This document shows positions 10,411-63,529 of a stretch of DNA of 64,000 nt, in pieces. The translations under genes and the position numbers were made by a program. This stretch comes from Chryseobacterium arthrosphaerae (GTDB lineage Bacteria > Bacteroidota > Bacteroidia > Flavobacteriales > Weeksellaceae). How positions within the stretch are numbered: position 1 is the stretch's first letter; each line of letters begins with the position of its first letter. Under the pieces are notes generated by a model. It was given only the letters and a program-made list of their open reading frames with translations, ran no database searches and was not told the DNA's origin. The stretch spans positions 3,362,082-3,426,081 of the forward strand of contig NZ_MAYG01000001.1 in assembly GCF_001684965.1 (NCBI RefSeq), written 5' to 3'.

Positions 10411-10415
10411 CAGCA

Positions 10416-11020: not shown

Positions 11021-11056
11021 TAATCAGTGACAAGGAATATACCTGTAATCAATCAT

Positions 11057-11560: not shown

Positions 11561-11581
11561 ATTATTTTATTTTTTAAATCT

Positions 11582-11612
11582 AACAAGCCCATACAAAAAG
11601 TAAGGGCTTGTT
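11582..11612. terminator. Hairpin terminator of the broken cassette
   Basis: The 9-bp inverted repeat AACAAGCCC/GGGCTTGTT has a 13-nt loop. It separates the broken immunity gene from the intact orphan gene downstream. Confidence 0.5.
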
Positions 11613-11654
11613 GTTTATTATGGAATGAGCAAGGCGCTCGAACCAGTGGGCTCC

Positions 11655-45952: not shown

Positions 45953-45960
45953 TAAATTTG
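45953..45960 (+). promoter_or_regulatory. -7 element that sets the second susC start
   Basis: TAAATTTG is an exact TAnnTTTG. Its TTG (45958) would be mis-called as a start. The true ATG is 12 nt downstream at 45973, giving a leader of about 6 nt. Confidence 0.6.
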
Positions 45961-45972
45961 CATTCAAAAAAA

Positions 45973-48900
45973 ATGAAGAAAACTTTAGCTACATTTGCAG
46001 TTTTTTTACTTCCCTTATATATTACAGCTCAAGAGGTTGCCATCTCCGGAAATGTAAAATCTGAAAGCGGCACGAGTGTTTCCGGGGTAAATATTACGGA
46101 TAAAAATACTGGAAAGACCACTACGACAGATGAAAATGGTAATTTTACCATTACAGCCAATCCGAAGGACATTCTTGAATTCTTTGCTCCTGATTTTTCT
46201 GTATATACCGTTGAGGTTTCTTCAAAAAGGCAGTATTCCATTGTTTTGACAAAGACGCATGAAAAACAGATCGAGGGAGTAGTAATTACCGCACTGGGAA
46301 TTGCCAAAAAGAAAGAAAAGATAGGCTATGCCACTCAGGAAGTAGGCACAAAGCAATTCGAAACAATCACTACACCAAGTATCGGTAATTTGTTTTCAGG
46401 ACAGGTAGCCGGTCTGAATGTTTCCAATCCTACAGGGATGCAGCAGGCACCTCAGTTTACATTAAGAGGAAACTCCAATCTGGTTTTTGTTATTGACGGA
46501 GTGATTGTAGACAAGGAGGTTTTTCAGAATTTAGATCCTAATAATATTGAAAATATCAACGTACTGAAGGGGGCTACCGCTTCTGCATTATACGGATCAA
46601 GAGGCCGTTACGGAGCCGTTCTGATCACAACAAAAAGTGCAAAAAAGAAAGGTTTTTCCGTAGAGTTTTCTCAAAATACCATGATTACGGGAGGCTTTAC
46701 CAATCTTCCGAAAACCCAGACAGAATACGGAAACGGTTCCCACGGAAAATATGAATTCTGGGACGGAGCCGATGGCGGGGTGAATGACGGAGATATGATC
46801 TGGGGGCCCAAATTTGTTCCGGGGCTTCAGATTGCTCAATGGAACAGTCCGATCAGGGATAAAGTTACCGGACAGGTTATTCCATGGTATGGAGCCGTGA
46901 CAGATACTCAGTACAATGATAAATCAAGGTACGAAAGGGTTCCCATTGACTGGACTTACCATGATAATTTAAAAACATTTTTAAAGCCTGCAGTGATCAA
47001 CAATAATAATTTTGCGATCAGCTACAGATATAATAAGGATACTTACAGACTTTCAGGGAACTTCATGAACTATGATGACAGGGTTCCTAATTCTTACCTT
47101 CAGAAGTATGGCATCAACTTCGCCTCTGAAAATCATCTCGGAGAGAAATTGATCTTTGATACGAAATTCAATTACAACCAGGCTTTCACACCGAATATTC
47201 CCAACTATGATTATAATCCGAGCGGACATATGTACACGATCCTGATCTGGATGGGAGGAGATGTAGACGGAAGAGCACTGAAAAACCATATGTGGGTTCC
47301 CGGAAAAGAAGGAAGGTCTCAGGCCAACTGGAACTATGCCTGGTACAATAACCCATGGTTCGGAGCTGAATATTATAAAAACCAGAACAGGACCAACATT
47401 ATCAATGCTCAGACTGGATTAGAATATAAAGCTACAAAAGATTTCTCCGTAAAAGGTAAAATATCAATTGTTGAAAACCACGTCAAAAGAGAAACCTTGA
47501 GCCCATACTCTTATTTCAACTACAGTGCTCCGAGAAGCGGGGGCTATATTCTGAAAGATAATAAAACCTGGAACCTCAACTACGATGTACTGGCAACCTA
47601 TAAGAAGAAAATATCTGAGAATTTTGATATTGCCATCAATGCCGGAGGTTCAACCTTTTATTATAAAAACAATATCAATGAAACGTCCACAGACGGTTTG
47701 AAAATTCCGGAAGTGTATACATTTGAAAACTCTATCGGAGCTTTAAAAAAATATACTTACCTGAAAGAAAAGCTGATCTACAGTGCCTATTCAACGATTG
47801 ACATCGGACTGTACAATGCTTTTTTCATCAATATTTCCGGGCGTAATGACTGGTCTTCCACACTTCCTAAAGCCAACAGGTCCTACTTTTATCCTTCTGC
47901 ATCGGTGAGTGCCGTGATTTCCAACCTTGTCAAACTCCCGGAGTCTGTTAATCTACTGAAACTTTCCGCTTCATGGGCGAAAGTAGCCTATGACTTCCAG
48001 CCTTATTCCATCAGAAATTATTACCTGAACAATAAAGGAATCACGTTCAACGGTAATCCTACGTTTTACTACCCTACCATCCTGAATGTTGAAAATTCTT
48101 TGAAACCGGAGCAGACAAAGTCTTATGAGCTGGGGCTGAGTGCAGGATTTCTCAATAACAGAATTACTTTAGACGCCACTTATTTCAGAACCCTGGATTA
48201 TAATAATATTCTGGAGTTCCCAAGTGCAGAATCTTCAGGTTTTACCTCACAATATGTAAACGGTAATGAATACACTACAAAAGGATTTGAAATCTCCCTT
48301 GGTCTGGTTCCTGTAAAAACGGCTGACTTTACCTGGAAAACTTTGATCAACTGGAGTACATATGAGCAAAAGCTGACTTCCATCTATAATAATATGCCGA
48401 ATTACAAGAATATCAAACTGGGCGAAAGAATGGACAGCTATTATGACTACACATGGCAGAAGTCTCCGGACGGCAAAGTGATCCTGGATGCGAAATCAGG
48501 AATGCCGACAAGGGCAAACACACCAAGCAATCTGAGGCATTTCAACCCGGACTGGACTTTCGGTTTCAACAACACTTTCAAATACAGAAAACTGTCTCTG
48601 AATATCGGAATTGATGGAAGCATCGGCGGCGTCATGAGATCTCAGGTTGTAGAAAAAATGTGGTGGGGAGGAAAACATCCTAATTCTGTAGCCTACAGGG
48701 ATCTTGAATATGCAACTCCGGGAACTTACTATTTTGTACCGGATGGAGTTAATTACAATCCTTCTACAGGTCTTTATACACCGCATACCAAAGCCATAAG
48801 CTTCCAGGACTGGGCGCAAAACTACCCGTATCAGGCAAGGGTAACACAGGATGAAAGTGAAGAGTTTGCCAATGTATTCGACAGGACTTTTATCAAGCTA

Positions 48901-49131
48901 AGGTCTGTAACATTAGAATATGATTTCTCTTCATTACTGAATCCTAAAGGAATGGTAAAAGGTTTCACTGCTAATATTTCCGCCTATAACCTGGCCATGT
49001 GGAAAAAATCGAAAAATCTTTATTCCGATCCGGATTTCCAGATCAGATCAGGAAGAACGGATGATATCACGAATGACATACAGGATCCGTCAAGCAGATG
49101 GTTTGGAATAGGGTTTAATCTTAAGTTTTAA
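45973..49131 (+). CDS. SusC/RagA family TonB-dependent outer-membrane transporter
   Basis: The 1052-residue protein has a Sec signal (ends YITAQE), an N-terminal carboxypeptidase-regulatory-like domain at about 22-100 (ISGNVKSESGTSVSGVNITD, GNFTITANPKD), a plug with IEGVVITALGIAKKKEKIGY, LFSGQVAGLNVSNPTG and VIDGVIVDKEVFQNLDPNNI, and a long barrel ending WFGIGFNLKF. Start is fixed by the promoter. It is followed after 19 nt by a susD gene and then a phosphocholine-specific phospholipase C, so a phospholipid-derived ligand is plausible but not proven. Confidence 0.94.
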   Translation: MKKTLATFAVFLLPLYITAQEVAISGNVKSESGTSVSGVNITDKNTGKTTTTDENGNFTITANPKDILEFFAPDFSVYTVEVSSKRQYSIVLTKTHEKQIEGVVITALGIAKKKEKIGYATQEVGTKQFETITTPSIGNLFSGQVAGLNVSNPTGMQQAPQFTLRGNSNLVFVIDGVIVDKEVFQNLDPNNIENINVLKGATASALYGSRGRYGAVLITTKSAKKKGFSVEFSQNTMITGGFTNLPKTQTEYGNGSHGKYEFWDGADGGVNDGDMIWGPKFVPGLQIAQWNSPIRDKVTGQVIPWYGAVTDTQYNDKSRYERVPIDWTYHDNLKTFLKPAVINNNNFAISYRYNKDTYRLSGNFMNYDDRVPNSYLQKYGINFASENHLGEKLIFDTKFNYNQAFTPNIPNYDYNPSGHMYTILIWMGGDVDGRALKNHMWVPGKEGRSQANWNYAWYNNPWFGAEYYKNQNRTNIINAQTGLEYKATKDFSVKGKISIVENHVKRETLSPYSYFNYSAPRSGGYILKDNKTWNLNYDVLATYKKKISENFDIAINAGGSTFYYKNNINETSTDGLKIPEVYTFENSIGALKKYTYLKEKLIYSAYSTIDIGLYNAFFINISGRNDWSSTLPKANRSYFYPSASVSAVISNLVKLPESVNLLKLSASWAKVAYDFQPYSIRNYYLNNKGITFNGNPTFYYPTILNVENSLKPEQTKSYELGLSAGFLNNRITLDATYFRTLDYNNILEFPSAESSGFTSQYVNGNEYTTKGFEISLGLVPVKTADFTWKTLINWSTYEQKLTSIYNNMPNYKNIKLGERMDSYYDYTWQKSPDGKVILDAKSGMPTRANTPSNLRHFNPDWTFGFNNTFKYRKLSLNIGIDGSIGGVMRSQVVEKMWWGGKHPNSVAYRDLEYATPGTYYFVPDGVNYNPSTGLYTPHTKAISFQDWAQNYPYQARVTQDESEEFANVFDRTFIKLRSVTLEYDFSSLLNPKGMVKGFTANISAYNLAMWKKSKNLYSDPDFQIRSGRTDDITNDIQDPSSRWFGIGFNLKF

Positions 49132-49150
49132 TTAAAAGCACTTCAATACA

Positions 49151-50668
49151 ATGAAAAATAGTATATACACAAAAGGATTCAGTCGCAGAACGGCAAAAGC
49201 ACTGATAAGAACGGTAATCGCTGCCGGATTTCTGTCATTGGCCTCCTGTGAGTCTAACCTTGATAAGATCAATGAAAACCCTAATGACCAGGCAAGCATT
49301 GATCCCAAATATCTTCTGACTTATGCATCAAAAGAAACCTTCCAGGTGAACGGCGATAATATGTACGCTTCAAGAATGATGATCGGTACTGATGGAGAAA
49401 ATACGTATCAGTACATGAAGTGGAATGATACTTCTTTTGAGGTCTATACGAAAGCGATTCTGAATACGGTAAAAATGATGCAGGAAGCTGAAAAGATCAA
49501 TAATAAAAATTATATAGCGATTGGCAAATTTTTAAGGGCTTATCATTTCTTCAATATCAGTTTGAAAGTGGGAAGCGCCCCATATTCGGAAGCCGTAAAA
49601 GGTGAATCCGGAATTACCCAGCCGAAGTACGACAGTCAGGAAGCCATCATGGCCGGAATTTTATCAGAGCTGAAAGAAGCCAATGACCTCATCAATACCA
49701 GTGATAAAATTGAAGGGGATATTATCTTCAAAGGAGATGCTTCGAAATGGAAAAAGCTGATCAACTCCTTCCGCCTGAAAATCCTGATCACCCTTTCTAA
49801 AAAGACTACGGTAGGAAACTATACTGTGGCTACAGAATTTGCATCTATTGCGGGAAGCCAGCCTCTGATGACTTCAATTGCCGATAACGGAGAGCTAAAA
49901 TTTGCAGATGCTGCAGACAGCAGATATACCATGTTTAATAACAGCGGATACGGATCTAGTTTATATATGGCTGATTACTTCATCAACCTGTTTAAAGAAA
50001 GACAGGATCCCCGCTTATTTACTTTTGCTGCCCAAACTACCGGTGCGAAGGAAGCAGGAAAGCCTATTACAGATTTTTCCGGATACAATGGCGGAAACCC
50101 TACTTCACCTTATTCTGATAATGCCGCCCTGATCACGGCAAAAAATATTTCAAAGGTTAACGACCGTTTCTATAAAGATCCTACCAATGAGCCTTCTTCT
50201 GTATTAAGCTATTCAGAGCTTGAGTTTATTCTTGCTGAAGCAGCCGCCAGAGGATGGATTTCCGGATCTGCAAAAACACATTATGACAATGCCATCAAAG
50301 CCAGTTTTAATTTTTACCAGACGTATGTGAAAAATCCGGGACAGTATTTTACAGGTTTTGATGTGAACCAGTATCTGACGACTCCTTTAGTGGTTTATAA
50401 TGATACAGACCCATTGCAGACCCAACTGGAAAAAATCATGACTCAAAAGTACATGACCATGTTTCACCAGGCACAATGGACTTCTTATCAGGATTATTTA
50501 AGAACCGGATATCCGAATTATCCTTTAAAAGCCGGAGTTCCCGCTCCGTTCAGGTTCAGATATCCGCAATCGGAATACAGCTATAACAGCAATAATTTAA
50601 AAGCGGCCCTTGCGGCCCAATACGGAGGAAATGACAATATCAACTCCAAACCGTGGTGGTTACAGTAG
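49151..50668 (+). CDS. SusD-like surface lipoprotein
   Basis: The 505-residue protein has a signal with SLASC near residue 33 (a longer than usual basic N-terminus, MKNSIYTKGFSRRTAKALIR). The mature part follows the SusD-like pattern of the 'SusD_like_2' type: NLDKINENPNDQASIDPKYL, NYIAIGKFLRAYHFFNIS, and a C-terminal LEKIMTQKYMTMFHQAQWTS that closes with a proline-rich basic RFRYPQSEY and NNLKAALAAQYGG. It would bind the ligand taken up by the SusC encoded 19 nt upstream. A hairpin follows before the phospholipase gene. Confidence 0.9.
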   Translation: MKNSIYTKGFSRRTAKALIRTVIAAGFLSLASCESNLDKINENPNDQASIDPKYLLTYASKETFQVNGDNMYASRMMIGTDGENTYQYMKWNDTSFEVYTKAILNTVKMMQEAEKINNKNYIAIGKFLRAYHFFNISLKVGSAPYSEAVKGESGITQPKYDSQEAIMAGILSELKEANDLINTSDKIEGDIIFKGDASKWKKLINSFRLKILITLSKKTTVGNYTVATEFASIAGSQPLMTSIADNGELKFADAADSRYTMFNNSGYGSSLYMADYFINLFKERQDPRLFTFAAQTTGAKEAGKPITDFSGYNGGNPTSPYSDNAALITAKNISKVNDRFYKDPTNEPSSVLSYSELEFILAEAAARGWISGSAKTHYDNAIKASFNFYQTYVKNPGQYFTGFDVNQYLTTPLVVYNDTDPLQTQLEKIMTQKYMTMFHQAQWTSYQDYLRTGYPNYPLKAGVPAPFRFRYPQSEYSYNSNNLKAALAAQYGGNDNINSKPWWLQ

Positions 50669-50695
50669 AAAAAACTGATTATTTTTTATATAAAC

Positions 50696-50736
50696 AAAGA
50701 AATCGCAGGAAAATCCTATTAACTTGCGGTTTCTTT
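50696..50736 (+). terminator. Hairpin between susD and the phospholipase gene
   Basis: A 14-bp stem with two G-U pairs (50696-50709 with 50723-50736) has only a modest T tract after it. It is perhaps an attenuator that lowers expression of the phospholipase gene relative to susCD. Confidence 0.55.
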
Positions 50737-50752
50737 CTTATTACGACTGAAC

Positions 50753-53098
50753 ATGAACAGAAGAGAATTTTTAGAAAAATCAAGCATTTTATTAGCGGGA
50801 TTGGGAACTTCAAGTGTTCTTCACCCTTCTATTTTAAAAGCATTGGCTATTGAACCGGCTGCCCAGTCTACTTTTTATGATGCAGAACATGTGGTCATCC
50901 TTATGCAGGAAAACCGTTCGTTTGATCATGCTTTTGGAGCCCTTAAAGGAGTCCGTGGATTTTTAGATAAAAGAGCTTTTATAAAACCGGACGGACATTC
51001 CGTTTTTTTTCAGAAGGATAATACGGGGAAATATGCCGCTCCTGCCCGCCTGGATCTGAGAAATACCAAATCTACGTGGATGAGCTCCCTTCCCCATTCA
51101 TGGGAAAACCAGCAAAATGCCCTGAATAAAGGAAAATATGATCAATGGCTTCAGGCAAAAGCTTCCGGAAATAAAGATTATAAAAATATTCCGCTTACAT
51201 TGGGATATTATAACCGCGAAGATCTTCCTTTTTATTATCAGCTGGCAGATGCCTTTACCATATTCGACCAGTATTTCTGCTCTTCACTTACGGGGACTAC
51301 TCCCAACCGGCTATTCCTTTGGTCCGGAACTTTGAGAGCACAGCAAAACGGAAAAGTGAAAGCCAACGTTGTCAACGAAAATATTGATTATGATAAGGCC
51401 AGACAGGCGAAATGGAAAAGTTTTCCGGAAATTTTAGAAGAGCAGAATGTTTCATGGAGAATTTATCAGAATGAAATCAGCCTTCCTAAAGGAATGTCCG
51501 GAGAACAGGAAGCCTGGCTGAGCAATTTTACAGATAACCCTATTGAGTGGTTTTCAAAGTTCAATGTTAAATTCTCAAAGGGATATCATCAGAATATTCC
51601 TAACCTCATTGAAAGACTGAAAAAGGAAATTGAAAAAAATCCTAAGCAGAAGGAAAGGCTGGAAGCCATGATTGCAGAACTGAAGGAAGATGAGGTAAAA
51701 TACCATCCGGATAATTATTCAAAACTTTCGAAGGAGGAGAAAAATCTTCATGAAAAGGCATTTACCACCAATTCCGGCGATCCGGATTACTGGAACCTGG
51801 AAACCGGAAAGGATGAAAACGGGGAAAGACTGGTAGTTCCTAAGGGAGACGTACTGTTCCAGTTCCGTAAAGATGTGGAAGAAAAAAAGCTTCCGCTGGT
51901 GTCATGGCTTGTGGCCCCCGAACATTTTTCTGATCATCCGGGATCTCCATGGTATGGAGCGTGGTATATTTCAGAAGTTTTAAATATCCTGACCAAAGAT
52001 CCTGAAACCTGGAAGAAGACCATTTTTATCATCAACTATGATGAAAATGACGGTTATTTTGATCATGTACTTCCTTTTGCCCCTCCTTTAAATCCGAGCC
52101 AGCCGGTAGATATGAACGGAAAAGAGGGAGTGGAATATGTAGACCGTTCCCAGGAATACATGTCTGATCCTTCTCTGAAAGATTATGAAAAAACTGAAGG
52201 TACCGTAGGCCTTGGCTACAGGGTGCCTATGATCATCGCATCTCCATGGACGAAAGGAGGGTTTGTGAACTCTGAGGTATCCGATCACACTTCTGTACTT
52301 CAGTTTCTGGAGAAGTTTATTATGAAAAAATTCAGCAAGGATGTTCATATTGACAATATCAGTGACTGGAGAAGGGCTATCTGCGGAGACCTGACTTCAG
52401 CATTCAACAGTCCGAATGTGAAAGCCCCGCAGATGAACTATCTAAACCAGAAAGATTATGCCAAAACCATCAATGCTGCCAGAAACAAACCGGTACCGGA
52501 TCTGAAATGGTATTCAGAAAACGAGCTTAAGAACAATTTGCTTGAGATCCAGGAAAGGGGTATGAAACCTTCCCATGCGCTTCCTTATAATTTCCATGTC
52601 AATCTGGAAGGGAAAGAGATAAAGATGACCAATTTAAAAGAGAACGGTGTTCCTCTGCTGGTTTATGACAGAGCACGGTTTAATACGGATAATTATCATT
52701 TCTCTTATGCTTTGTATTCAAAACAGGAACTATCCCATGCTGTGCACTCAGGGGCTTATGATTATGAAGTTTTCGGGCCCAACGGATTCTTCCGAAAGTT
52801 TAAAGGAAATGCTGATCCGGATCTGGAAATCATTCTGGTCAATACTATTTCAAAAAACCAGGTGGAACTGATCATCAGAAACAATAAGAAGAAAAATATT
52901 TCTGTAGTACTGGAAGACCTCTACGGGAAAACAAAAAAAACAATAGCGTTGCAGAAGCCTGAGGAAAAAATAGCTTTTGACCTCAATAACAACAAAGGCT
53001 GGTACGATTTTAACATTACAGCGGGCGACCATCAGTGGCACTTTGCGGGAAGAATAGAGACCGGTAAAATTTCCGTTTCTGATCCGCACTGGGCATAG
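50753..53098 (+). CDS. Phosphocholine-specific phospholipase C
   Basis: The 781-residue enzyme is predicted to cut phosphatidylcholine and similar lipids to diacylglycerol and phosphocholine. It starts with a twin-arginine (Tat) signal, MNRREFLEKSSILLAG. The phosphoesterase domain (about 40-555) has VVILMQENRSFDHAFGALKG, FDQYFCSSLTGTTPNRLFLW, VSWLVAPEHFSDHPGSP and NYDENDGYFDHVLPFAPP, plus a late SPWTKGGFVNSEVSDHTSVL. Two C-terminal DUF756 beta-sandwich domains (about 595-680 and 700-781) follow. Length and layout match the non-haemolytic PLC family. It is third in line after susC and susD, separated by a hairpin. A strong terminator follows. Confidence 0.95.
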   Translation: MNRREFLEKSSILLAGLGTSSVLHPSILKALAIEPAAQSTFYDAEHVVILMQENRSFDHAFGALKGVRGFLDKRAFIKPDGHSVFFQKDNTGKYAAPARLDLRNTKSTWMSSLPHSWENQQNALNKGKYDQWLQAKASGNKDYKNIPLTLGYYNREDLPFYYQLADAFTIFDQYFCSSLTGTTPNRLFLWSGTLRAQQNGKVKANVVNENIDYDKARQAKWKSFPEILEEQNVSWRIYQNEISLPKGMSGEQEAWLSNFTDNPIEWFSKFNVKFSKGYHQNIPNLIERLKKEIEKNPKQKERLEAMIAELKEDEVKYHPDNYSKLSKEEKNLHEKAFTTNSGDPDYWNLETGKDENGERLVVPKGDVLFQFRKDVEEKKLPLVSWLVAPEHFSDHPGSPWYGAWYISEVLNILTKDPETWKKTIFIINYDENDGYFDHVLPFAPPLNPSQPVDMNGKEGVEYVDRSQEYMSDPSLKDYEKTEGTVGLGYRVPMIIASPWTKGGFVNSEVSDHTSVLQFLEKFIMKKFSKDVHIDNISDWRRAICGDLTSAFNSPNVKAPQMNYLNQKDYAKTINAARNKPVPDLKWYSENELKNNLLEIQERGMKPSHALPYNFHVNLEGKEIKMTNLKENGVPLLVYDRARFNTDNYHFSYALYSKQELSHAVHSGAYDYEVFGPNGFFRKFKGNADPDLEIILVNTISKNQVELIIRNNKKKNISVVLEDLYGKTKKTIALQKPEEKIAFDLNNNKGWYDFNITAGDHQWHFAGRIETGKISVSDPHWA

Positions 53099-53121
53099 AA
53101 AAACCAATCAATAACTCAAAC

Positions 53122-53152
53122 AAAATCCTGTACCCACCTGTGCAGGATTTTT
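53122..53152 (+). terminator. Intrinsic terminator after the phospholipase gene
   Basis: A 12-bp stem with one G-U pair (53122-53133 with 53140-53151) is followed by Ts. Confidence 0.8.
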
Positions 53153-53285
53153 CATATAATTCACTATATGATTATCAAATATATTACATTATAGGAATCA
53201 AATAATCACTGATATAAAAATTATACTATATTTTTTTCACAATATGCTGAATTTTATTATATTCACTTAACTAATTATCAGCATC

Positions 53286-53861
53286 ATGAAAAAACTAAAA
53301 TTAACGATTGCATTATCATTTTTAGCAGCTGGAATATCCGGAAATCTAAGTGCGCAGGACACAAATACTGACAGCCATACAATCACGATTTCTATTCCTA
53401 AAGTTGCACTGGTAGACATTGAGCCTTCAGCTACAAAAAACCTTGTTCTTGGATTCACAGCACCTTCAGAGGCTGGAAATCCTGTTGTGGCAAGCCCGGC
53501 CAATAATAGCTTATGGCTTAACTATTCATCAATCAAATCCGGTTCTGATACCCGTAATGTAACGGTAAAACTCAATGCCCTTGTTCCCGGAGTTGATATT
53601 CATGTAACAGCTGCCGCCCCTACAGGAGCTGGTGGAGGAACACTGGGCACATCTGCAGGATTGCTTACATTAAGCGCCGCAGATCAGACTATTATTTCGG
53701 GGATAGGAAGTGCTTACACAGGTAACGGAGCCAATAACGGACACAATCTTACGTACGCTCTTGCTGCAGGAAGCGGCCCCGGAGGAGTAGCTAACTATGC
53801 AGATCTACAGGTTACAGCAACCACAACAGCTACAGTAATTTATACGATATCAGACAACTAG
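53286..53861 (+). CDS. Secreted fibre-subunit-like protein (major subunit candidate)
   Basis: The 191-residue protein has a Sec signal ending GNLSAQD. The mature chain is beta-rich and low in charge. It shares with the protein at 57489 a set of conserved blocks: IPKVALVDIEP, GFTAPSEAGNP, GAGGGTLGT, IISGIGSAYTGNGANNGH and a C-terminal strand ATVIYTISD. The final alternating hydrophobic strand resembles the donor or acceptor strand ends of pilins and of spore-coat-U-type proteins, a comparison from general pattern only. It is the first gene of a five-gene run that also encodes a chaperone-like and an usher-like protein. A hairpin lies between it and the next gene. Confidence 0.65.
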   Translation: MKKLKLTIALSFLAAGISGNLSAQDTNTDSHTITISIPKVALVDIEPSATKNLVLGFTAPSEAGNPVVASPANNSLWLNYSSIKSGSDTRNVTVKLNALVPGVDIHVTAAAPTGAGGGTLGTSAGLLTLSAADQTIISGIGSAYTGNGANNGHNLTYALAAGSGPGGVANYADLQVTATTTATVIYTISDN

Positions 53862-53891
53862 AATTAACAACCATTCTATTCTGCATTTCAA

Positions 53892-53930
53892 AAACAAGAA
53901 GAAATTGTTAAGCAGTTTCTTCCTGCTTTT
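53892..53930 (+). terminator. Hairpin within the fibre operon
   Basis: A 12-bp imperfect stem (around 53896-53907 and 53912-53924) follows the first subunit gene. It could be a partial terminator or an mRNA stabiliser that gives more of the major subunit than of the assembly genes. Confidence 0.4.
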
Positions 53931-53960
53931 GTATTATTAATGATTTAACCTAGATTTTAT

Positions 53961-54764
53961 ATGATGACAAAGCGTATTCTTCTTTTGATCGCCTTTATGT
54001 TGCAGTTTGGATTTTTGCATGCCGGTATTGTGGTTCTCAACGGTCTTACGCATTCCTATAAAATAGAAAACGGGAAAGTTTACAAGGGAAAAGTAGCCAT
54101 TGAGAATACAGCCAATACTCCTCAGAGTGTAAAATTATTTTTACAGGACTTCACCTACCATGCTGATGGCACCATCCATTATACTGCATTACAGACCAAT
54201 CAGCGCACCAATGGAAACTGGATTAAGCTGAATACCAATCTTGTCACCCTGAAGGCCAGAGAAAAAACGGAGGTATTGTATGAAATCACCGTTCCTTATG
54301 AGGTCAAATCTCCCGGCAGCTACTGGAGTGTGATCATTGTAGAACCTGTAGATGACATAAAGCCCAGCGACAATAAACCAGGAGTAAATATTACCTCTGT
54401 GATTCGCTATGCGATTCAGGTCATTACAGACATTGAAACGGAAAAAGCGAAACCGGAACTTAAATTCGAAAGTGTAAAAGTAGAAAAGGAAGAAGGAAAA
54501 AAAACTGTAAAAATTGCCATAGCCAATCATGGAAATCTTTACTGTAAACCAACGGCATCCATTGAAATCTATCACCGCAAGACCGGGGAAAAAGTCGGAA
54601 CTTACTCCAGTTTAACCATGGGATTGCTGCCTTCTACCTCCAAAATTTTCCCTATTGATATCAGTAAATTACCCCCGGATAAATATACCGCTACGATAAT
54701 AGCCACAGATGAAGAAGACAATGCCTTTGCCCTGAATGTGGAACTAGAAGTAAAAAATGATTAA
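53961..54764 (+). CDS. Chaperone-like two-domain Ig-fold periplasmic protein
   Basis: The 267-residue protein has a Sec signal ending FLHAG and two predicted Ig-like domains (about 22-145 and 160-265). The first carries KGKVAIENTANTPQSVKLFL and KAREKTEVLYEITVPYEVKS. The second carries KTVKIAIANHGNLYCKPTAS and ends with an ALNVELEVK strand. The size, pair of Ig domains and place next to a large outer-membrane protein recall PapD/FimC chaperones or the DUF916 group, but the sequence is not close to classical PapD (no obvious conserved Arg/Lys pair). It overlaps the next gene by 8 nt. A role in protecting and delivering the secreted subunits is inferred. Confidence 0.6.
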   Translation: MMTKRILLLIAFMLQFGFLHAGIVVLNGLTHSYKIENGKVYKGKVAIENTANTPQSVKLFLQDFTYHADGTIHYTALQTNQRTNGNWIKLNTNLVTLKAREKTEVLYEITVPYEVKSPGSYWSVIIVEPVDDIKPSDNKPGVNITSVIRYAIQVITDIETEKAKPELKFESVKVEKEEGKKTVKIAIANHGNLYCKPTASIEIYHRKTGEKVGTYSSLTMGLLPSTSKIFPIDISKLPPDKYTATIIATDEEDNAFALNVELEVKND

Positions 54765-57492
54765 AACCTGGACATTATTTATCATCCTGTTATTATTCCC
54801 GGTATCTACTTTTTGTCAACAGCAGTCAGAACGACTGATCAGTAAAAAAGATAGCTTAATGCCAGGAATGTCTACTTCTGTTCCTTTTACATTGGAAAAC
54901 AGCTCGGCTGAAAACAAAAACTACGATATTTCGGTTACGACCTCAAGTCCTCACATCACTCCTATCCTGGCAAAAGGAAAATTCCAGGTTCCGCCTTATG
55001 AATCTTCCGTATATCCGGTTCCTTTACGTATTGCCGCAGAAACAGCTCAGGGAGAGTATTCGGTAACGCTGAATATTACAGACCTCAATACCGGAACTGC
55101 TTTTTCTAAAAAAGTACCGGTAACAGTCTCCGGAAACAGAAAATTCTCACTGACCACATTGGATTCACCTGAATTTATAAGGGCTGGAGAAACCATCCGG
55201 TCGTCCTTTCTTTTAAAAAATAACGGCAACATAACCGAAACCCTTATCCTGGAAAGTAAGTCTGCGATTATTGATCACGATCCGTCTGTTACCCTTGGAC
55301 CGAACGAATCCAAAGTAATTACAATACACAAAGTAACGAATGCTGAGCTTAAACAGAATGAATTTCAGAATCTGAACCTTTTGGTCTATTCAAAAGATAA
55401 TCCGAAAGAAAATCAAAACCTCTATGTGAGTACTCAGGTGATATCGGTAAAACCTGCCAACAGCGATATTTACCACAGGCTACCCGTTGCAGCCTCATTA
55501 TCTTTCATTGGAATGAAAAATATGGGGGTTTATAATGATGGCTTCCAGGGCGAGCTTTATGGCAAAGGAACATTGGATCAAGAGAATAAAAATCAGATTG
55601 AATTCCATGCAGCCACCCATAATCCTATAGAATTCAACACGTTTACCCAATACGAAGAGTATTTTATCAATTATAAAAGGGAGCGCTTTTATGTGCATCT
55701 TGGAGATAAAACCTATTCTTCCTCTTATTTGACTGAGTTTGCGAGATACGGCCGGGGAGCGGAAATCCGGTATGATTTCAATAAAGTAAGTCTGGGCGGC
55801 TTTTATAACCATCCCAGATTTTTCCGTGATATTAAAGATGAATTGAATTTCTACTCAACTTTCAGGATCCGTAAAGAATCAGAAATCTCGGTGGGGTATC
55901 TGTACAAAACACCGCGAAAGGCAGAAATGTATGACAGAAATACAAGGTTGGATTCTGATGCCCACCTTCCTTATACCAAGGGAAAATTCAAGATCTCAAA
56001 AAACATTACTCTTTCCGGGGAATTTGCCTACAGCACTACCAAAGCAACCCATGGAACAGCTTATATGCTTCAGTCTGATATCAATTTGGAAAAACTCAGC
56101 GGAAGTTTGATGTATATGAAAGCAAGCCCCATGTTTGCCGGATATTTTACCAACACCCATACTTTTAACGGAAATATTCAATACAGGTTATCAAAGAAAA
56201 TCAGTGTAATGGCCACCTATACCCAGGATGCCAAAAATTTCGAAAGAGATACATTATTTTTAGCAGCACCCTACAGGCAATACTTACAGTATGGTGTGCA
56301 GTACAAATACCTGCCCAATGGATTTGTAATGTTTAATAACGGTTATCAGAAATATCAGGACCGCCTGGAGCCCAGACAATTTGATTATTACGAGCGGTTT
56401 TTCAGGATGAGTCTGAATCAGAAGATCGGAATATTCCAGGTCAATCTTGAGGGGCAAATTGGAAATACAGACAATTATCTGACGGGATTCAGCGGCAATT
56501 CCAGCTTTTATTCTGCCAATCTTTCATTTGAAAAATTCAGAACATCATTTAATGTATTCGGAAGTTACGCCATTACTTCCCGGTACCAGCTGCAAAATCA
56601 GAAACAGCTTTATTACGGGGCCAGGATCTTCAGTAGGTTCTCTGATAAGACGAGCTTAAGTATCTTTTATCAGAATAATTATATTCCTGAGGAGTATTTC
56701 AAAGACAGAAACCTGTTTGAGCTGCTGTTTCACCAACAGTTATTTCCGGGAAATGAACTGGATCTTTCAGGCAGGTATTCTTTGCAACGGGGTGAAATAG
56801 GCAATAAAGATTTTATATTTTCAATGCGGTATACCTGGCGTCCTGATATTCCGGTACAGAAAGTGGCAGAATACGTTTCCTTATCAGGGAATGTGCGTAA
56901 TCTTGGGATCAAAAGAACAGAGGGAGTAAGACTGATGCTTGGGAGCTATTTATCCATCACAGACAAAGAGGGTAATTATGCATTTAAAAATGTTACTCCG
57001 GGAAGTTATTTTCTGGAAATAGACCGGTCAACAACAGAAATCAATGATATCCCGACTTCGGCTTTTCCTGTAGCTTTAGCGCTCGCTGATAAAGAAAACA
57101 TTTATAATTTCGGATTAACTACCGCGGCCAATGTACAAGGGCATATCCGGCTGACAGAATCGGATCCCGAAGCACCAACGATTCAAAAGGGTAAAAATAA
57201 AAAGGAAAGTATCATTCTGGAAGCTGTCAGTAATGAGCAGACCTATCGTAAGATCTGTTTCATAGGGGAAGATTTTGATTTTACCTATCTGCGTCCCGGA
57301 GACTGGACGGTTAAAGTCTACCGGAATGGTCTTGACAAACGGTATAAGATTTCAACGGATAAATTTGAATTTACCCTGAAGGCTGCAGAGACCAAAAAAC
57401 TGAGTATTCAGATCGTCAGACATCAGTTAGAAATCAAATATCAGCAGGAATCCCTGAAAGTAGGATATAATGAAATAAAAGGCAAGAAATGA
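54757..57492 (+). CDS. Large outer-membrane usher-like protein
   Basis: The 911-residue protein has a Sec signal ending TFCQQ and three recognisable zones. Residues about 25-235 are two Ig-like segments similar to NEW3-type domains (SVPFTLENSSAENKNYDISV, IRSSFLLKNNGNITETLILE). Residues about 240-715 alternate short aromatic strands (FEVAYSTTKATHGTAYML-like, FNGNIQYRLSKKISVMATYT) and look like an outer-membrane barrel. Residues about 720-905 hold carboxypeptidase-regulatory-like domains (YVSLSGNVRNLGIKR, SITDKEGNYAFKNVTPGSYF) that resemble the C-terminal and plug modules of fimbrial ushers. It overlaps the chaperone gene by 8 nt and the next subunit gene by 4 nt. The role is inferred from layout and context. 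Confidence 0.6.
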   Translation: MIKTWTLFIILLLFPVSTFCQQQSERLISKKDSLMPGMSTSVPFTLENSSAENKNYDISVTTSSPHITPILAKGKFQVPPYESSVYPVPLRIAAETAQGEYSVTLNITDLNTGTAFSKKVPVTVSGNRKFSLTTLDSPEFIRAGETIRSSFLLKNNGNITETLILESKSAIIDHDPSVTLGPNESKVITIHKVTNAELKQNEFQNLNLLVYSKDNPKENQNLYVSTQVISVKPANSDIYHRLPVAASLSFIGMKNMGVYNDGFQGELYGKGTLDQENKNQIEFHAATHNPIEFNTFTQYEEYFINYKRERFYVHLGDKTYSSSYLTEFARYGRGAEIRYDFNKVSLGGFYNHPRFFRDIKDELNFYSTFRIRKESEISVGYLYKTPRKAEMYDRNTRLDSDAHLPYTKGKFKISKNITLSGEFAYSTTKATHGTAYMLQSDINLEKLSGSLMYMKASPMFAGYFTNTHTFNGNIQYRLSKKISVMATYTQDAKNFERDTLFLAAPYRQYLQYGVQYKYLPNGFVMFNNGYQKYQDRLEPRQFDYYERFFRMSLNQKIGIFQVNLEGQIGNTDNYLTGFSGNSSFYSANLSFEKFRTSFNVFGSYAITSRYQLQNQKQLYYGARIFSRFSDKTSLSIFYQNNYIPEEYFKDRNLFELLFHQQLFPGNELDLSGRYSLQRGEIGNKDFIFSMRYTWRPDIPVQKVAEYVSLSGNVRNLGIKRTEGVRLMLGSYLSITDKEGNYAFKNVTPGSYFLEIDRSTTEINDIPTSAFPVALALADKENIYNFGLTTAANVQGHIRLTESDPEAPTIQKGKNKKESIILEAVSNEQTYRKICFIGEDFDFTYLRPGDWTVKVYRNGLDKRYKISTDKFEFTLKAAETKKLSIQIVRHQLEIKYQQESLKVGYNEIKGKK

Positions 57493-58016
57493 TTCTCATA
57501 CGTTCCATATTATTAACAGCATCTTTGATGATCTCCGGTATAGTGTACTCCCAGTCCACCGTTACCTTCACTTTACCTGTGGTGACTTTAATGGACATAG
57601 AGCCTGCAGGAAATATCTCCCTGAACTTCACCGCCCCTACTGAGGCAGGAAATCCTCTTGGTAACCCGGCTCCCAACACATCAAAATGGATCAATTATAC
57701 TTCTGCAATTGCCGCCGGAGGACTTCCCAGAAAAATCACAGCCGCTCTTCTTAATTCGGGTATCCCCGGCGTGAATATCAGATTGCAGGCTGCAGCAGCT
57801 TCCGGAGCCGGAGGAGGTACATTAGGAACACCTTCAGCACAGGTTACCCTTACCACGACTCCTGTTACGATCATAAGCGGAATCGGAGGAGCATACACGG
57901 GCAATGGAGCTAATAACGGGCATCGTCTTACGATTTCCCTGGTTCCGGGTACTTATGCCAACTTATTAGCACAGACCAATACAACGGTTACAATCGTCTA
58001 TACCATCACAGAATAA
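57489..58016 (+). CDS. Second fibre-subunit-like protein, paralogue of the first
   Basis: The 175-residue protein has a Sec signal ending VYSQS. It aligns over almost its whole length with the protein at 53286 through LPVVTLMDIEPAG, NFTAPTEAGNP, GAGGGTLGT, IISGIGGAYTGNGANNGH and VTIVYTITE. It starts 4 nt inside the usher-like gene (ATGA overlap), so it is translationally coupled to it. It is likely a second or minor subunit. The mature parts are short on Lys and rich in Gly, Ala, Thr and Asn. Whether it is exported to the surface is unknown. Confidence 0.65.
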   Translation: MILIRSILLTASLMISGIVYSQSTVTFTLPVVTLMDIEPAGNISLNFTAPTEAGNPLGNPAPNTSKWINYTSAIAAGGLPRKITAALLNSGIPGVNIRLQAAAASGAGGGTLGTPSAQVTLTTTPVTIISGIGGAYTGNGANNGHRLTISLVPGTYANLLAQTNTTVTIVYTITE

Positions 58017-58025
58017 AACTGAAAC

Positions 58026-58604
58026 ATGAAAATGAACAGCTACTTTCCCGGAAACAATTACTTAAAAAGAAACCTATTTATGTTTCTTCTGATCATAAGC
58101 AGTTATCTGAAAGCACAGGTAGTAATGGTCTCCGGAGACTGGGCAGCTACTATACCTGCGATCACCGAAGCCGGCAGTAATTATGCAGGAACTTACAGTA
58201 ATGCTTCCATTCCCACGACGGCGATAACACTATCCACTACATTATCCGGGAATTTTCTCAATGTCCTTGCAGGAAAAGGTGCAAAAATGACCATGCGTTA
58301 TACTTCCAATGCCTGGAACAGTTCTTTAGGTCTTTCTGCAAGACGAACAGGGCCAACAACAGGTACCATTTCAGGCGTGTGTTTGCTGTGCTCAGCTACC
58401 ATCAGTGGAGGCGACACCTTCATTCCTATAGATTCGAATTCAGATACCACTTTCTTCAATTTAAATTTTGCAGGTGTTTTAGGAATAAGCAATACGGCAA
58501 ATTTCTCGGATATCAACCTGATCTTACAGCTATCCGGTGTTTCTGTTACCATTCCTGCCGCCAACTACAGTGCCCGCATAATTTTCACTGTAGTCTCCAA
58601 CTGA
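58026..58604 (+). CDS. Secreted protein closing the operon, tip-adhesin candidate
   Basis: The 192-residue protein has an N-terminal hydrophobic signal (ends YLKAQV, after a somewhat long N-region MKMNSYFPGNNYLKRN) and a beta-rich mature chain that is not closely related to the other two subunits. Its ending, SANYSARIIFTVVSN-like, keeps the final strand pattern of the subunits. A CLLC pair near the middle could form a disulfide, unlike the Cys-free subunits. It is last in the operon, 9 nt after the paralogue, with a terminator after it. Placement suggests a tip or anchor protein. Confidence 0.55.
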   Translation: MKMNSYFPGNNYLKRNLFMFLLIISSYLKAQVVMVSGDWAATIPAITEAGSNYAGTYSNASIPTTAITLSTTLSGNFLNVLAGKGAKMTMRYTSNAWNSSLGLSARRTGPTTGTISGVCLLCSATISGGDTFIPIDSNSDTTFFNLNFAGVLGISNTANFSDINLILQLSGVSVTIPAANYSARIIFTVVSN

Positions 58605-58665
58605 TCATATTGACAATGGAAGCCTGAAGATACTTGGTAAAGTTCTGCAGGCCAATAGCATAAAA

Positions 58666-58702
58666 AAACAAATCCTTTTCAAGTTTTGAAAAGGATTGTT
58701 TA
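58666..58702. terminator. Bidirectional terminator between the fibre operon and the third susD
   Basis: A stem of about 13 bp (AAATCCTTTTCAA and its complement) has A and T runs on its sides. It lies between convergent stops at 58604 (+) and 58714 (-). Confidence 0.8.
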
Positions 58703-58713
58703 TACTTAAGATT

Positions 58714-60609
58714 TTAATGTTTCGCCCACCAAAGAGGGGTTAATACTGCGTCAGCACCACCCAACAGCTGGACGGCCTGATCATATCCGGTCTGATCAGT
58801 GTTTCTGAAAATGCTCGGATATCTCAATCTCTGAGGGAAATTCTGGACAGAATTGGTCATATAGTTCCCTGAATTCAGATTAGGAAGATTAACCAATGGC
58901 GTTTCTATTGCAGGATTTTCCATGAAAGGCAATCCCAGTCTTCTATGATCATTCCAGGATTCTAAAGGTAGCCATGGCATATTAGCCAGATACTTCTGAG
59001 TAATGATCTTCGTTAATTTATCATTTTTAAATGATCCGTTTTTATAGATTGTATTTACAGGATATTTGATGTCTACTGAAATTAAATTACCTGTAACCGG
59101 GTCTTTATACTTCATGGTATGGCTTACCCCAGGTTCTGTGGTATGAGAATAAGAAACAGATGTTCCGTCCCTGTTATAATCTGTTGAAATGATATACTGA
59201 CCATAAAACTGAGAAACTCCGTTATACGCAAAGCTATCCTGTATTCCCTTATTATAAGCAGCTTCATCACTCATGGGAACAGACCATCCTTTCAGCGCAG
59301 CTTCAGCCATCAGGAAATAGGTTTCCCAGCTTGCGAAGAAAATTCTGGAATTGGTTCCCTCCCTGTATTGTTTTCCTAAAGCAGGCATACAGCCGATCAC
59401 CCCTCTCAGTCCGTTTCTTTGTCCTTTTACACCCCAGTTTCCTATTGTGGTCGTATTCCAGGTATTTACCGTATTGATGGTAATTTTAGACCCATTGGCA
59501 AAGGTAAGATCCCCCTTATTGGTAGAAGCCAGATTATTGTATTTTGGATAAAAAGAATAAATAGGACTTATAAAATCTCCTGGAATATAGAATGTTTTAT
59601 AGGCTCTGGGATCTATTTTATTGGGTAAACCATCTAACCAATATCCTGCACTTGGGTCATTGGTCATTGTTGAGAACTGTTCATCATATTTTATTCCGAT
59701 ATAATCTGAAGCTTTCACTGCGGTATGCTGGGCTGCCGGTAATTGTTCTGTAGAATTTATTCCTCCAAGCCCTATATACATATTATTAAGTGTTGCAGAC
59801 AGGATCTGGGAATTCCATTCTCTGGACATCACTCCCGATAGAGGATTCCATCCTGTATCTTCCTTAACTTTAAAGTTATCATCACTTGTACTGATCAGCA
59901 TATTAGAATTAGCCGCCTCTTCAAACTCTGCTTTTGCTTTTGCCGGATCCACTTCTGAAATCCTCATGGCAATTCTCATCCGCATAGAATTAGCATACTT
60001 TACCCATTGCCCCCATTTAAAGGAATAAGCCATATCAACTGCATTAGGGTTTGAAGGAACAGGCTGGCTGACATCCATTTTAGCAGCAGCATCTTTCAGT
60101 TCATTCAAAATAAAATAATACACTTCTTTTTCAGAATTAAACCCCGGATTAACCCCTTTAAATGCCTGAATAGGCTGTGGCCCAAAATTATCAGAAAACT
60201 CACTCATCAAATAAGCCCTCCAGATTCTGGCAGTCTGAATAAGATTTTCATAATAAGGTTTACCCTGACCTATTGCTTTTTTCTCATTGGCAATTTCAAT
60301 AGTAGCGTTGGCGTTATTCAGCCATTCGGAGATCCCTTTCCAATATTCTACAGTCCAGGAGTCGTCATAGGAACCGCCTGCAATTCCTGTTGACAGGTGC
60401 TGTCGTGCTGCGGTCTTCCAGTAAAGAACAAAGGTACGTTCTGCAATATTGGGATCCTGCTGTGCTCCCAGAATAGAATTATTTAAAAAATATTCAGGCT
60501 CAGCTCTATTAATATCTACTGAAAACGGATCATTATTAATGTCTTCAAAATCATTACAAGATGTACTAAATGCCGCCAGTGCAATGAGAGATAAAATATA
60601 TTTTTTCAT
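58714..60609 (-). CDS. SusD-like surface lipoprotein
   Basis: The 631-residue protein has a lipoprotein signal (STSC, Cys18). It is SusD-like with the pattern of the longer subgroup: DFEDINNDPFSVDINRAEPE, ARIWRAYLMSEFSDNFGPQP, WGQWVKYANSMRMRIAMRIS and a C-terminal ITQKYLANMPWLPLESWNDH followed by RLGLPFMENP. Length is above the common 500-550. It is co-transcribed with the susC gene 16 nt upstream and ends at a shared terminator. The ligand is unknown. Confidence 0.9.
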   Translation of the reverse strand: MKKYILSLIALAAFSTSCNDFEDINNDPFSVDINRAEPEYFLNNSILGAQQDPNIAERTFVLYWKTAARQHLSTGIAGGSYDDSWTVEYWKGISEWLNNANATIEIANEKKAIGQGKPYYENLIQTARIWRAYLMSEFSDNFGPQPIQAFKGVNPGFNSEKEVYYFILNELKDAAAKMDVSQPVPSNPNAVDMAYSFKWGQWVKYANSMRMRIAMRISEVDPAKAKAEFEEAANSNMLISTSDDNFKVKEDTGWNPLSGVMSREWNSQILSATLNNMYIGLGGINSTEQLPAAQHTAVKASDYIGIKYDEQFSTMTNDPSAGYWLDGLPNKIDPRAYKTFYIPGDFISPIYSFYPKYNNLASTNKGDLTFANGSKITINTVNTWNTTTIGNWGVKGQRNGLRGVIGCMPALGKQYREGTNSRIFFASWETYFLMAEAALKGWSVPMSDEAAYNKGIQDSFAYNGVSQFYGQYIISTDYNRDGTSVSYSHTTEPGVSHTMKYKDPVTGNLISVDIKYPVNTIYKNGSFKNDKLTKIITQKYLANMPWLPLESWNDHRRLGLPFMENPAIETPLVNLPNLNSGNYMTNSVQNFPQRLRYPSIFRNTDQTGYDQAVQLLGGADAVLTPLWWAKH

Positions 60610-60625
60610 GATGTTATTGTTAAGG

Positions 60626-63529
60626 TTAAAATCCTAATGTAATGGAAAATAAATACGATCTTGTGGTAGGAAATGAAAGGTTTTCGAACCCTACAGCATT
60701 GGAATTGATAGCAAATACAGACTCAGGATCTATTCCTTTGGCTTTGCTGTAGATCATCCATACATTGTTTGCTGTAAAAGAAATTTTAGCACTTTGTAAT
60801 GCTAATTTTTCAAAAATACTTTTCGGAAAGTTATAAGACAGTTGAATATTTCTCAGCCTGATATTGGTAGCATCATAGATATTCTGTTCTGTAATACCTA
60901 AATTCCCTGCCGTTACAGCCGCCCAATAATCCTGTTGTGTGATTTCTTTTGTATTGGCAGTAAAGGCTCCATTCTGCTGCACTACCGCATCGAGAACAAA
61001 ATTATCTCTTCTTCCGCCAGGAGCTGTATCTGCTGCCAGCCCTGCTTTCTGTAATGCTGATTGTGTTGATGAATAAAACTTCCCACCGATTCTTCCGTCA
61101 ATAAGGAAAGAAATTCCAAAATTCTTATATACAAAGCTATTGGTGAATCCAAATAAAGCCCTTGGCGTCTGATCTCCCAGATAATACTGTTCAGCAGTGG
61201 CCTGAGGCAAGCCATTCTGTCCTACAATAAGTTTTCCATAGTGCGGGCTGTTAGGATCTTCCACTCTTAAAAATTTTGTTCCGTAAATAGATCCGTAAGG
61301 CATCCCCACTTCTGCAAAGAAGCCGACATTATCAAACCCTCCTAAAGGGTATTTTAAAACCTCTCCGTCAATTCTGTCAATTACACTTTTTAATTTAGAG
61401 AAATTGGCATTCACATTCCATGTAAAATTCTCTTTTTTAACAATATCAGTATTGACAACCACTTCGATCCCACTGTTACTAAGCCCTCCTGAACTTATTT
61501 TTCTATACTCATATCCGGAAAGTGGATTCATAGGTAAATCTATCAGCTGATCTGTTGCTGTATTTTTGAAATAACTTACATCCAGAGAAACCCTGTTAAA
61601 GAATTTAAGATCTGCCCCTACTTCAAAAGTCTTAAGTTTCTCCGCATGCAGATTCGAATTATAAAGGATTTTCTTTCTGCCAAGAATGGCACCCCCATTC
61701 GGATCTGCGCCCAGTTTATAAGTATTGTATAGCTCATACGGATTCAAAGAGTTCCCGGTTATTGCATAAGCAGCACGAAGTTTGGCAAAAGTTAATACTT
61801 TCGAAGTATTCCCATTCAGTTTGTTCAGCATTTCCGTTAAAACCAAAGAGGTACTTACTGAAGGGTAAAAATAGGATCTGTTTTCAATCGTTAATGTAGA
61901 AGACCAATCGTTTCTTGCAGTCGCATTAATGAACCAGTAACCATCATAATTAATCTCAGCAGAAGCAAACACTGAATTGATCTTCTTCCAGAAATCGATC
62001 TCATTATTTGCAATACCTGCAATATCACTGGTATTATTTACACTGAAGACATTCGGAACGATCAGGTTTTGAGTACTGAAATAAAGCGCTTTGGTTCTGG
62101 TTTCCATCATTTGCCCGTAAACAGAAACTGAACCGCCCCATTTCCCCAGTAAATTATCTTTTTTAGCAGTAAGACTTGCAATATAATTATTCTCATAAAA
62201 CTTTTCCTCACTGGTTGCATACGCATTTCTGCGGGAAGACCCTGTCCATACCCTTGCATCTGCATTCAGTGCATAAAAGTCTGTTCCCAGTCTGACATCT
62301 CCGCTCAACCAATCATTAAATTGATATTTAAGATAACCGTTTAATAAGAAACGGTCTTTTTTATCAGCATTAAGCCCATTATAAGCTGACCAGTAAGGAT
62401 TAATCCCGTTAGGAGTTATCCAACGCGACTGCACATCATTCTGCATCTGTCCCTGTTGGTAATCTCTTATATCTATATTCTGAGGCATGAGAAGAATATT
62501 AGGATAGTAATTACCATCTCCCCTACCTCCCGAAGGTCTGTTTTTAGCCTTTGTACTTATATATTGAACTTTGACTTCAGAGGTCCACCTTTTATTCGCT
62601 CCAAAATTAGAGTTCATTTTCGCCATAAAATTAAATCGCTCAAACCTGGAGTTCGGAATCTGGCTATTATCATTTAAATAGTTGGCTGAAGTATACAGAC
62701 TGGTACCTTCGCCCAAGTTTTCCTGAAAACTTAAAGTATGCTGTGAATTAATTCCTGTCTTAAAGAAATTTTTCAGATTATCATACCGCTTCATATCGGA
62801 TCCTTCAAAAGCAGGTCCCCATGAGCTTGTATTATCGCTATTTGCAGGATTTACGGTACCGTTCAACCCTAATCCGAAACTATCCTGCATATCCGGTTTC
62901 ATAAAAATGGTTTCGAAGCCTAAACTTGTAGAATAAGTAATTCCCAGCCCTCCTTTTCTTTTTCCGGTCTTGGTAGTGATCAAAATAACCCCGTTTCCCC
63001 CTCTTGATCCATATAAAGCTGAAGCGGCCCCGCCCTTAAGCACTGATATACTTTCTATATCATCTGCATTAATATCTGCCAATCCATTTCCCATATCTAA
63101 GTCAGGATTCCAGAAATCATTATTATAGTATCCATCATTCTGCTTAGCTTTCGAGCCAGCGCTATTACTCAAAGGTACCCCATCTACTACAATAAGAGGC
63201 TGATTATCCCCTTTAAGCGAATTAAACCCTCTAAGATTTATCTTAGATGAAGAGGCAGGCCCAAAACCTCCTTTTACCACCTGAAGCCCGGCTACTTTGC
63301 CCGCTAATGCATTTGTAACATTCGTTTCTTTTGCATCCACCAATGTTTGACCTTTCACATCCTGGAAAGAGTATCCCAATGTCTTTTTCTCCTTTTTAGC
63401 ACCATAAGCCGTTACAACAATCTCATCAATTTTTGCAGCTTTGGTAGAATCTGTATTTTGCCCATGCAAAGCGTTCAGACCTAAAAATAAAGATGGGAGA
63501 AGTCCAATCTTAATTATTAATTTATTCAT
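60626..63529 (-). CDS. SusC/RagA family TonB-dependent outer-membrane transporter
   Basis: The 967-residue protein has a Sec signal ending ALHGQN and a TonB box region at about 35-50 (IDEIVVTAYGAKKEKKTL). The plug contains ALAGKVAGLQVVKGGFGP, INLRGFNSLKGDNQPLIVVD, LKGGAASALYGSRGGNGVIL and the barrel ends YLFSITLGF. It lacks the carboxypeptidase-regulatory-like N-terminal domain, like the SusC at 39930. A TATATTTG -7 element lies 20 nt upstream of the ATG. It is first gene of the pair with the susD-like gene 16 nt downstream. Confidence 0.93.
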   Translation of the reverse strand: MNKLIIKIGLLPSLFLGLNALHGQNTDSTKAAKIDEIVVTAYGAKKEKKTLGYSFQDVKGQTLVDAKETNVTNALAGKVAGLQVVKGGFGPASSSKINLRGFNSLKGDNQPLIVVDGVPLSNSAGSKAKQNDGYYNNDFWNPDLDMGNGLADINADDIESISVLKGGAASALYGSRGGNGVILITTKTGKRKGGLGITYSTSLGFETIFMKPDMQDSFGLGLNGTVNPANSDNTSSWGPAFEGSDMKRYDNLKNFFKTGINSQHTLSFQENLGEGTSLYTSANYLNDNSQIPNSRFERFNFMAKMNSNFGANKRWTSEVKVQYISTKAKNRPSGGRGDGNYYPNILLMPQNIDIRDYQQGQMQNDVQSRWITPNGINPYWSAYNGLNADKKDRFLLNGYLKYQFNDWLSGDVRLGTDFYALNADARVWTGSSRRNAYATSEEKFYENNYIASLTAKKDNLLGKWGGSVSVYGQMMETRTKALYFSTQNLIVPNVFSVNNTSDIAGIANNEIDFWKKINSVFASAEINYDGYWFINATARNDWSSTLTIENRSYFYPSVSTSLVLTEMLNKLNGNTSKVLTFAKLRAAYAITGNSLNPYELYNTYKLGADPNGGAILGRKKILYNSNLHAEKLKTFEVGADLKFFNRVSLDVSYFKNTATDQLIDLPMNPLSGYEYRKISSGGLSNSGIEVVVNTDIVKKENFTWNVNANFSKLKSVIDRIDGEVLKYPLGGFDNVGFFAEVGMPYGSIYGTKFLRVEDPNSPHYGKLIVGQNGLPQATAEQYYLGDQTPRALFGFTNSFVYKNFGISFLIDGRIGGKFYSSTQSALQKAGLAADTAPGGRRDNFVLDAVVQQNGAFTANTKEITQQDYWAAVTAGNLGITEQNIYDATNIRLRNIQLSYNFPKSIFEKLALQSAKISFTANNVWMIYSKAKGIDPESVFAINSNAVGFENLSFPTTRSYLFSITLGF

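Follow-up and report, generated by a model that had tools for sequence, protein, structure and literature searches.

Gene content and conservation of the operon

Five genes form a compact operon on the plus strand at positions 53286–58604 of a 64,000-nucleotide stretch of DNA from Chryseobacterium arthrosphaerae (contig NZ_MAYG01000001.1, positions 3,362,082 to 3,426,081), which we call the window. We refer to the genes as A, W, U, B and C, in operon order. Gene A (53286–53861, 191 amino acids) encodes a putative major fibre subunit, pilin-like in its predicted fold and with a signal-peptide-like N terminus. W (53961–54764, 267 amino acids) encodes a putative periplasmic chaperone of the WxLIP (DUF916–DUF3324) family, and U (54757–57492, 911 amino acids) an outer-membrane protein and putative usher. 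B (57489–58016, 175 amino acids), a paralogue of A, is a putative minor subunit, and C (58026–58604, 192 amino acids), distantly related to A and B, a putative tip or terminal subunit. An earlier reading of the letters alone (the sequence-only reading) had proposed a five-gene plus-strand operon here, and all five open reading frames (ORFs) lie where it placed them. A and W are separated by 99 nt, W and U overlap by 8 nt, U and B overlap by 4 nt, and 9 nt lie between B and C. Judged by eye from the sequence, the N termini of all five proteins resemble signal peptides.

Further loci were retrieved through U, and 90 loci were scanned with profiles of the five families; most come from one genus, and the set is made up of related loci with some duplication (L034 and L132 are apparently a single contig). 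The order A–W–U–B–C was kept in 84 of the 90 loci, an arrangement beyond chance and the conservation that the sequence-only reading had named as a check on its chaperone-usher-like proposal; among these, L150 has an A truncated where its contig stops. As for the other six, a contig end truncates L036 and L140, W lies in two reading frames in L075 and L149 (the latter also begins at a contig end), B and C are fused in L127, and the operon is gone from L153. Both L035 and L151, with U proteins that are 21–25% identical, keep all five genes in this order, as does L150 with its truncated A and a U in the same identity range.

U itself was present in 36 of 59 genomes, namely 34 of 36 from the same genus, counting its own, and 2 of the remaining 23. 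Across the class, 69 of 395 sampled genomes matched U at E 0.001, only four of them (its own, G247, G348 and G189) over most of U; the remaining matches were partial, chiefly to the C-terminal part. The best 80 of 104 relatives comprised 77 from Chryseobacterium, 2 from Elizabethkingia and 1 from Weeksellaceae. Searching its own genome with U returned one match, a second, distant usher type being beyond the reach of this search. The type is not confined to this locus: the phylum has related chaperone-usher pairs at other places, and the C. arthrosphaerae genome itself contains a second pair.

W and its indirect link to pilus chaperones

By its sequence, W belongs to the WxLIP family, and both domains of that family were found in order. 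W scored over the Pfam cut-off for PF11797 (WxLIP_HBD, E 8.4e-10) and under it for PF06030 (WxLIP_PGBD, E 2.2e-4), and at E 0.1 or better the two domains were matched by 17 and 15, respectively, of 20 W members. In a more diverse set of 14 W proteins, 3 and 4 matched the two WxLIP domains and 7 matched the generic fn3_5. Against the PDB, the W profile retrieved only the two EfmWxLIP1 sequences, at E 4.6e-12 and over both domains (215 positions); the diverse set matched EfmWxLIP1 at E 6.6e-8. These are Ig-like domain families, in agreement with the sequence-only reading of W as an Ig-like two-domain protein; its statement that the operon matches no named system does not hold, since a named family matches W. 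In one locus (L036:333-1499), W carries a long acidic, serine-rich insert between its two domains.

The WxLIP family, to which this putative chaperone belongs, has so far been known from Gram-positive bacteria. According to PMC10599100, an AlphaFold2 prediction has a WxLIP strand fitting a gap in WxL and completing its sandwich, and the role proposed for WxLIP is to fix WxL on peptidoglycan. A strand of this kind would work like a pilus chaperone. The terms chaperone, usher, donor and Bacteroid were absent from the main text of that paper in a term search, and among the matches listed from the open-licence literature on WxLIP or Bacteroidota chaperone-usher systems, we found no description of this operon type.

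PapD-type chaperones anchor the subunit by a basic residue. By analogy, we propose by hand Arg149-Tyr150 of W (codons at 54405–54410, plus strand) as a candidate counterpart. The pair was invariant in 20 of 20 and 14 of 14 aligned W proteins, and the motif occurred in 87 of 91 W frames, the halves of two split genes included.

Searching the phylum with W returned matches in 40 of 395 genomes at E 1e-8; five of these belong to genus g238, in which the three regions inspected hold W without U. In the C. arthrosphaerae genome itself, this search led to a second W-like gene (L240, G000:C1:686000-700000, cluster at 3654–11766). The cluster opens with four small secreted proteins, of which three are near-identical, followed by the W-like protein, a 935-amino-acid usher-like protein and a 477-amino-acid protein. 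The W-like protein exceeded the WxLIP_PGBD cut-off (32.3 versus 27.3 bits), and at E 0.1 or better WxLIP_PGBD was matched by three of six second-type W-like proteins scanned and PapD_N by two, the latter under its cut-off. The C-terminal domain of the 477-amino-acid protein (residues 347–477) resembled the small proteins of the cluster (97.8%, E 8e-13), which by analogy would be the layout of a two-domain tip adhesin.

This second type provides a bridge to the pilus chaperones. A profile of 15 second-type W-like proteins (A21) matched W in profile–profile comparison at 99.9% (E 4.4e-35) and six E. coli K-12 FimC-type pilus chaperones at 96.7% (E 4e-10, 214 columns), these two-profile E-values being uncalibrated against a database. 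Subsets reached 93.0% and 85.7%, and W combined with the second type reached 93.9%. By contrast, 20 column-shuffled controls all scored below 0.5%, and an unrelated Ig pair, for which the N-terminal portion of U was entered as one sequence, scored 1.4% and 0.1%. Against the PDB, A21 matched EfmWxLIP1 at E 1.8e-6 and, far more weakly, the chaperone FaeE (E 1.3). Compared directly with the six E. coli chaperones, the W profiles gave only 2.6% and 5.1%, and PapD_N was matched by 1 of 14 W proteins (L193, E 0.007, below cut-off). Thus, homology to the PapD superfamily was found through the second type as intermediate, and the link between W itself and PapD is indirect. We entertain, at a little short of an even chance, a wider proposal based on these profiles and on predicted structures: Gram-positive WxLIP, W and the PapD/FimC chaperones would form one superfamily, Bacteroidota would hold a large unrecognized chaperone-usher branch with its own usher family, and Gram-positive WxL would be a relative that kept strand donation without an usher.

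The outer-membrane partner and the small secreted proteins

The predicted model of U (pLDDT 75.9, pTM 0.50) is a β-barrel flanked by β domains. Two N-terminal Ig-like domains (residues 39–124 and 130–229; 54871–55443) were read from the secondary structure of the model, the split into two being ours. The barrel, in which 26 strands were counted, spans residues 244–694 (55486–56838), and a C-terminal β region (residues 709–888; 56881–57420) can be read as two carboxypeptidase-regulatory-like domains; the model is poorly ordered through much of residues 700–815. At E 0.1 or better, CarboxypepD_reg was found in 12 of 12 U members; the match in U of the window lies under the Pfam cut-off. This is the layout that the sequence-only reading had described, including the barrel on which it had staked its usher proposal. 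In a Foldseek search with the model, FimD and PapC led the full-length outer-membrane matches (FimD 3rfz_B, E 1.6e-9), with low TM-scores. Among distant relatives (set A14: L191–L193, L195, L196, L198, L200 and others), U proteins are 955–1340 amino acids long, and in L151 (6135–9212) a 1025-amino-acid U has an extra N-terminal stretch with a lipoprotein-like start.

Chaperone and usher travel together, whichever serves as bait. We examined 34 regions, 14 picked by U matches and 20 by W matches, and by profile W and U lay within the same few kilobases in 12 and 11 of these, respectively (23 of 34 overall). In five further W-picked regions, an ORF of 994–1491 amino acids beside W, missed by the iterated profile, was related to the second usher type (hhalign, 98.4%), bringing the W-picked count to 16 of 20. 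Within the co-occurring set, U is cut by the contig end in L203 and W is divergent in L202; in some regions, a small or 340-amino-acid secreted protein lies between the two genes. The pair was incomplete in L199 and L201 (no W found), in L248, L249 and L255 (W alone) and in L250. The three W-alone regions, all from genus g238, share similar neighbours, and no U or small secreted partner was found in them by profile.

The barrel also gave porin matches, as would be expected if U were a SusC-like or porin-like transporter, with W and A–C as binding proteins of a nutrient system. Such a system might also be suggested by the flanks of the operon (45958–53098 and 58714–63529), where SusC/SusD-like pairs were recognized by eye and one gene encodes a phospholipase C (PF04185, PF05506). 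However, the iterated U profile at E 1e-4 recruited no other ORF of at least 700 amino acids in the regions or the window, SusC-like proteins included; the SusC-like proteins of the window scored 27% and 4% against two U profiles; and in L035 the five genes have other neighbours. We regard the transporter explanation as highly improbable. In L153 (G349:C1:2433000-2446000), a genome of the same genus without the operon, a fragment matching U positions 806–876 remains in a 122-amino-acid open frame. It sits downstream of a phospholipase-like gene, like the one that flanks the operon in the window, and an ORF further on is presumably a reading of ribosomal RNA. Many draft contigs among the U relatives stop about 2 kb or less after U, which suggests a repeat there.

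Among the small proteins, A was the one folded, and its predicted fold is pilin-like with middling scores: 13 of the top 14 VIA-align rows were chaperone-usher pilins. A does not look like an enzyme, whereas an unrelated enzyme fold is what the sequence-only reading had named as contrary to its proposal. A and B, which that reading had called related glycine-rich proteins, are 50% identical and share a C-terminal tail at a fixed position, its distance being kept in 84 of 88 B proteins; C was related to the A/B profile at 87.7% (hhalign). By profile comparison, we found no sequence homology to E. coli pilins, and neither A, B and C of the window nor 9 A/B and 6 C members matched any Pfam family. 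This includes WxL, which the 9 A/B and 6 C members did not match even at E 5. C carries a C-x-x-C pair, and at least two cysteines are present in 85 of 88 C proteins and none in the distant L035 copy; they may have a disulfide or metal role.

A candidate terminator-like hairpin follows A (53898–53922, plus strand) and could lower expression of the downstream four genes relative to A. Nine terminator-like sites were found in 53090–58800 versus 4.6 (s.d. 2.1) in shuffles. A comparable hairpin within 100 nt 3′ of A occurred in 61 of 84 loci versus 467 of 1,680 mononucleotide shuffles, a comparison in which the shuffles preserve single-base composition only and the 84 loci are related. A hairpin after the first gene suits A as an abundant first subunit. 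This position also bears on another explanation, that U exports or displays single adhesin subunits or short oligomers without a long fibre. The operon has one A gene only, and the L127 fusion, in which C follows B without an internal signal peptide (by eye from the sequence), would be a two-domain secreted protein, as that explanation would have it. By contrast, a first gene with its own hairpin is what an abundant subunit would have, and paralogues A and B with the same fixed tail suit polymerization. We therefore judge it very unlikely that subunits are displayed singly.

A proposed assembly pathway and its known counterparts

Taken together, these results support the chaperone-usher-like interpretation of the sequence-only reading, and we consider it likely that the operon is a divergent chaperone-usher pathway that builds a surface fibre as E. 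coli pili are built. A, B and C would reach the periplasm by cleavable signal peptides as incomplete β-sandwich subunits. W, a soluble two-domain Ig-like protein, would cap each of them, probably by adding a strand, and hold the fixed C-terminal strand. U, with Ig-like or similar β domains at both ends of its barrel, would receive the W–subunit complexes and exchange W for an N-terminal strand supplied by the subunit that follows, and the polymer would exit through the U pore. A would be the bulk subunit, because it is the first gene and a hairpin follows it, and B and C minor or tip subunits. Assembly of a fibre by this operon is what we infer from these features.

Several observations weigh against this pathway. 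In an usher, the barrel has 24 strands, carries an inserted plug and is flanked by further domains. The parallel to fimbrial ushers drawn by the sequence-only reading extends, in the predicted model, to barrel size and flanking domains; the model barrel of U contains no inserted plug, and sequence comparison revealed no homology to E. coli ushers, as hhalign against FimD and PapC gave 5.5–6.1% for U and 0.8% for the second usher type. No usher family was among the 11 Pfam matches of U in the window at E 1. As the chaperone superfamily is shared only through a bridge and usher homology was not found, the operon would be a divergent variant rather than a plain member of the chaperone-usher pathway. 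In addition, among 10 aligned proteins of set A14, SPOR occurs in 3 and LysM in 1, which suggests peptidoglycan contact, a possible anchor at the C terminus of distant U proteins, and W occurs without U in some genomes.

The last two points would agree with a Gram-negative surface system of the WxL kind that makes no fibre: W would keep A, B and C within the envelope, either on peptidoglycan or at the inner side of the outer membrane, and U would serve as an anchor or as a pore for secretion. The homology of W to Gram-positive WxLIP, with its proposed role on peptidoglycan (PMC10599100), points the same way. However, the C-terminal transmembrane helix of WxLIP was not seen in W (the top 19-residue hydropathy past residue 60 was 1.31 in 88 W proteins), A, B and C lack a WxL match and A is predicted to be pilin-like, and in the second cluster, near-identical small proteins stand in tandem and the last protein has two domains. 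On balance, we find such a fibre-less system unlikely.

If the chaperone-usher-like pathway is real, a route of assembly familiar from textbooks would reach into a major phylum, with the chaperone family in 40 of the 395 sampled genomes, and a function would be suggested for operons whose subunits match no Pfam family. It would also explain WxLIP as a chaperone-like strand donor, the Gram-positive mechanism resting on predictions in PMC10599100. W and A offer a directly testable chaperone–subunit pair in environmental strains used in the laboratory.

Among known systems, the type V pili of Bacteroidota (FimA/Mfa1 of Porphyromonas) are surface fibres of the same phylum, which is known for them, and their subunits are lipoproteins. 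We rate them low as a counterpart: a lipobox-like motif was found in 0 of 86 A proteins (8 of 88 B and 10 of 88 C fitted a loose pattern), and in Pfam at E 1, A, B and C gave no match to a fimbrillin family. For the CS1-type (alternative) ushers, CooC_C, the C-terminal domain of CS1-pili formation, was matched by 1 of 10 U members (E 1.3e-5), and the second chaperone type reached 55% against EcpB; no match was obtained to EcpC (3.1%), to EcpB with W (2.6%) or to EcpA (0.6%). Gram-positive WxL/WxLIP clusters differ from the operon, in which U is an outer-membrane partner, W shows no transmembrane helix and A, B and C have no WxL by Pfam, whereas W shares the WxLIP family with them over both domains. 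The type 1 (fim) system of E. coli K-12 differs in that the operon has no usher or pilin sequence homology to it, no inserted plug in the model and a WxLIP protein as chaperone, and in fim, fimI lies between fimA and fimC. It is otherwise similar in the order of major subunit, chaperone, usher and minor subunits, in a chaperone superfamily reached through the second cluster type, in the pilin-like fold predicted for A and in the U barrel with β domains at both ends.
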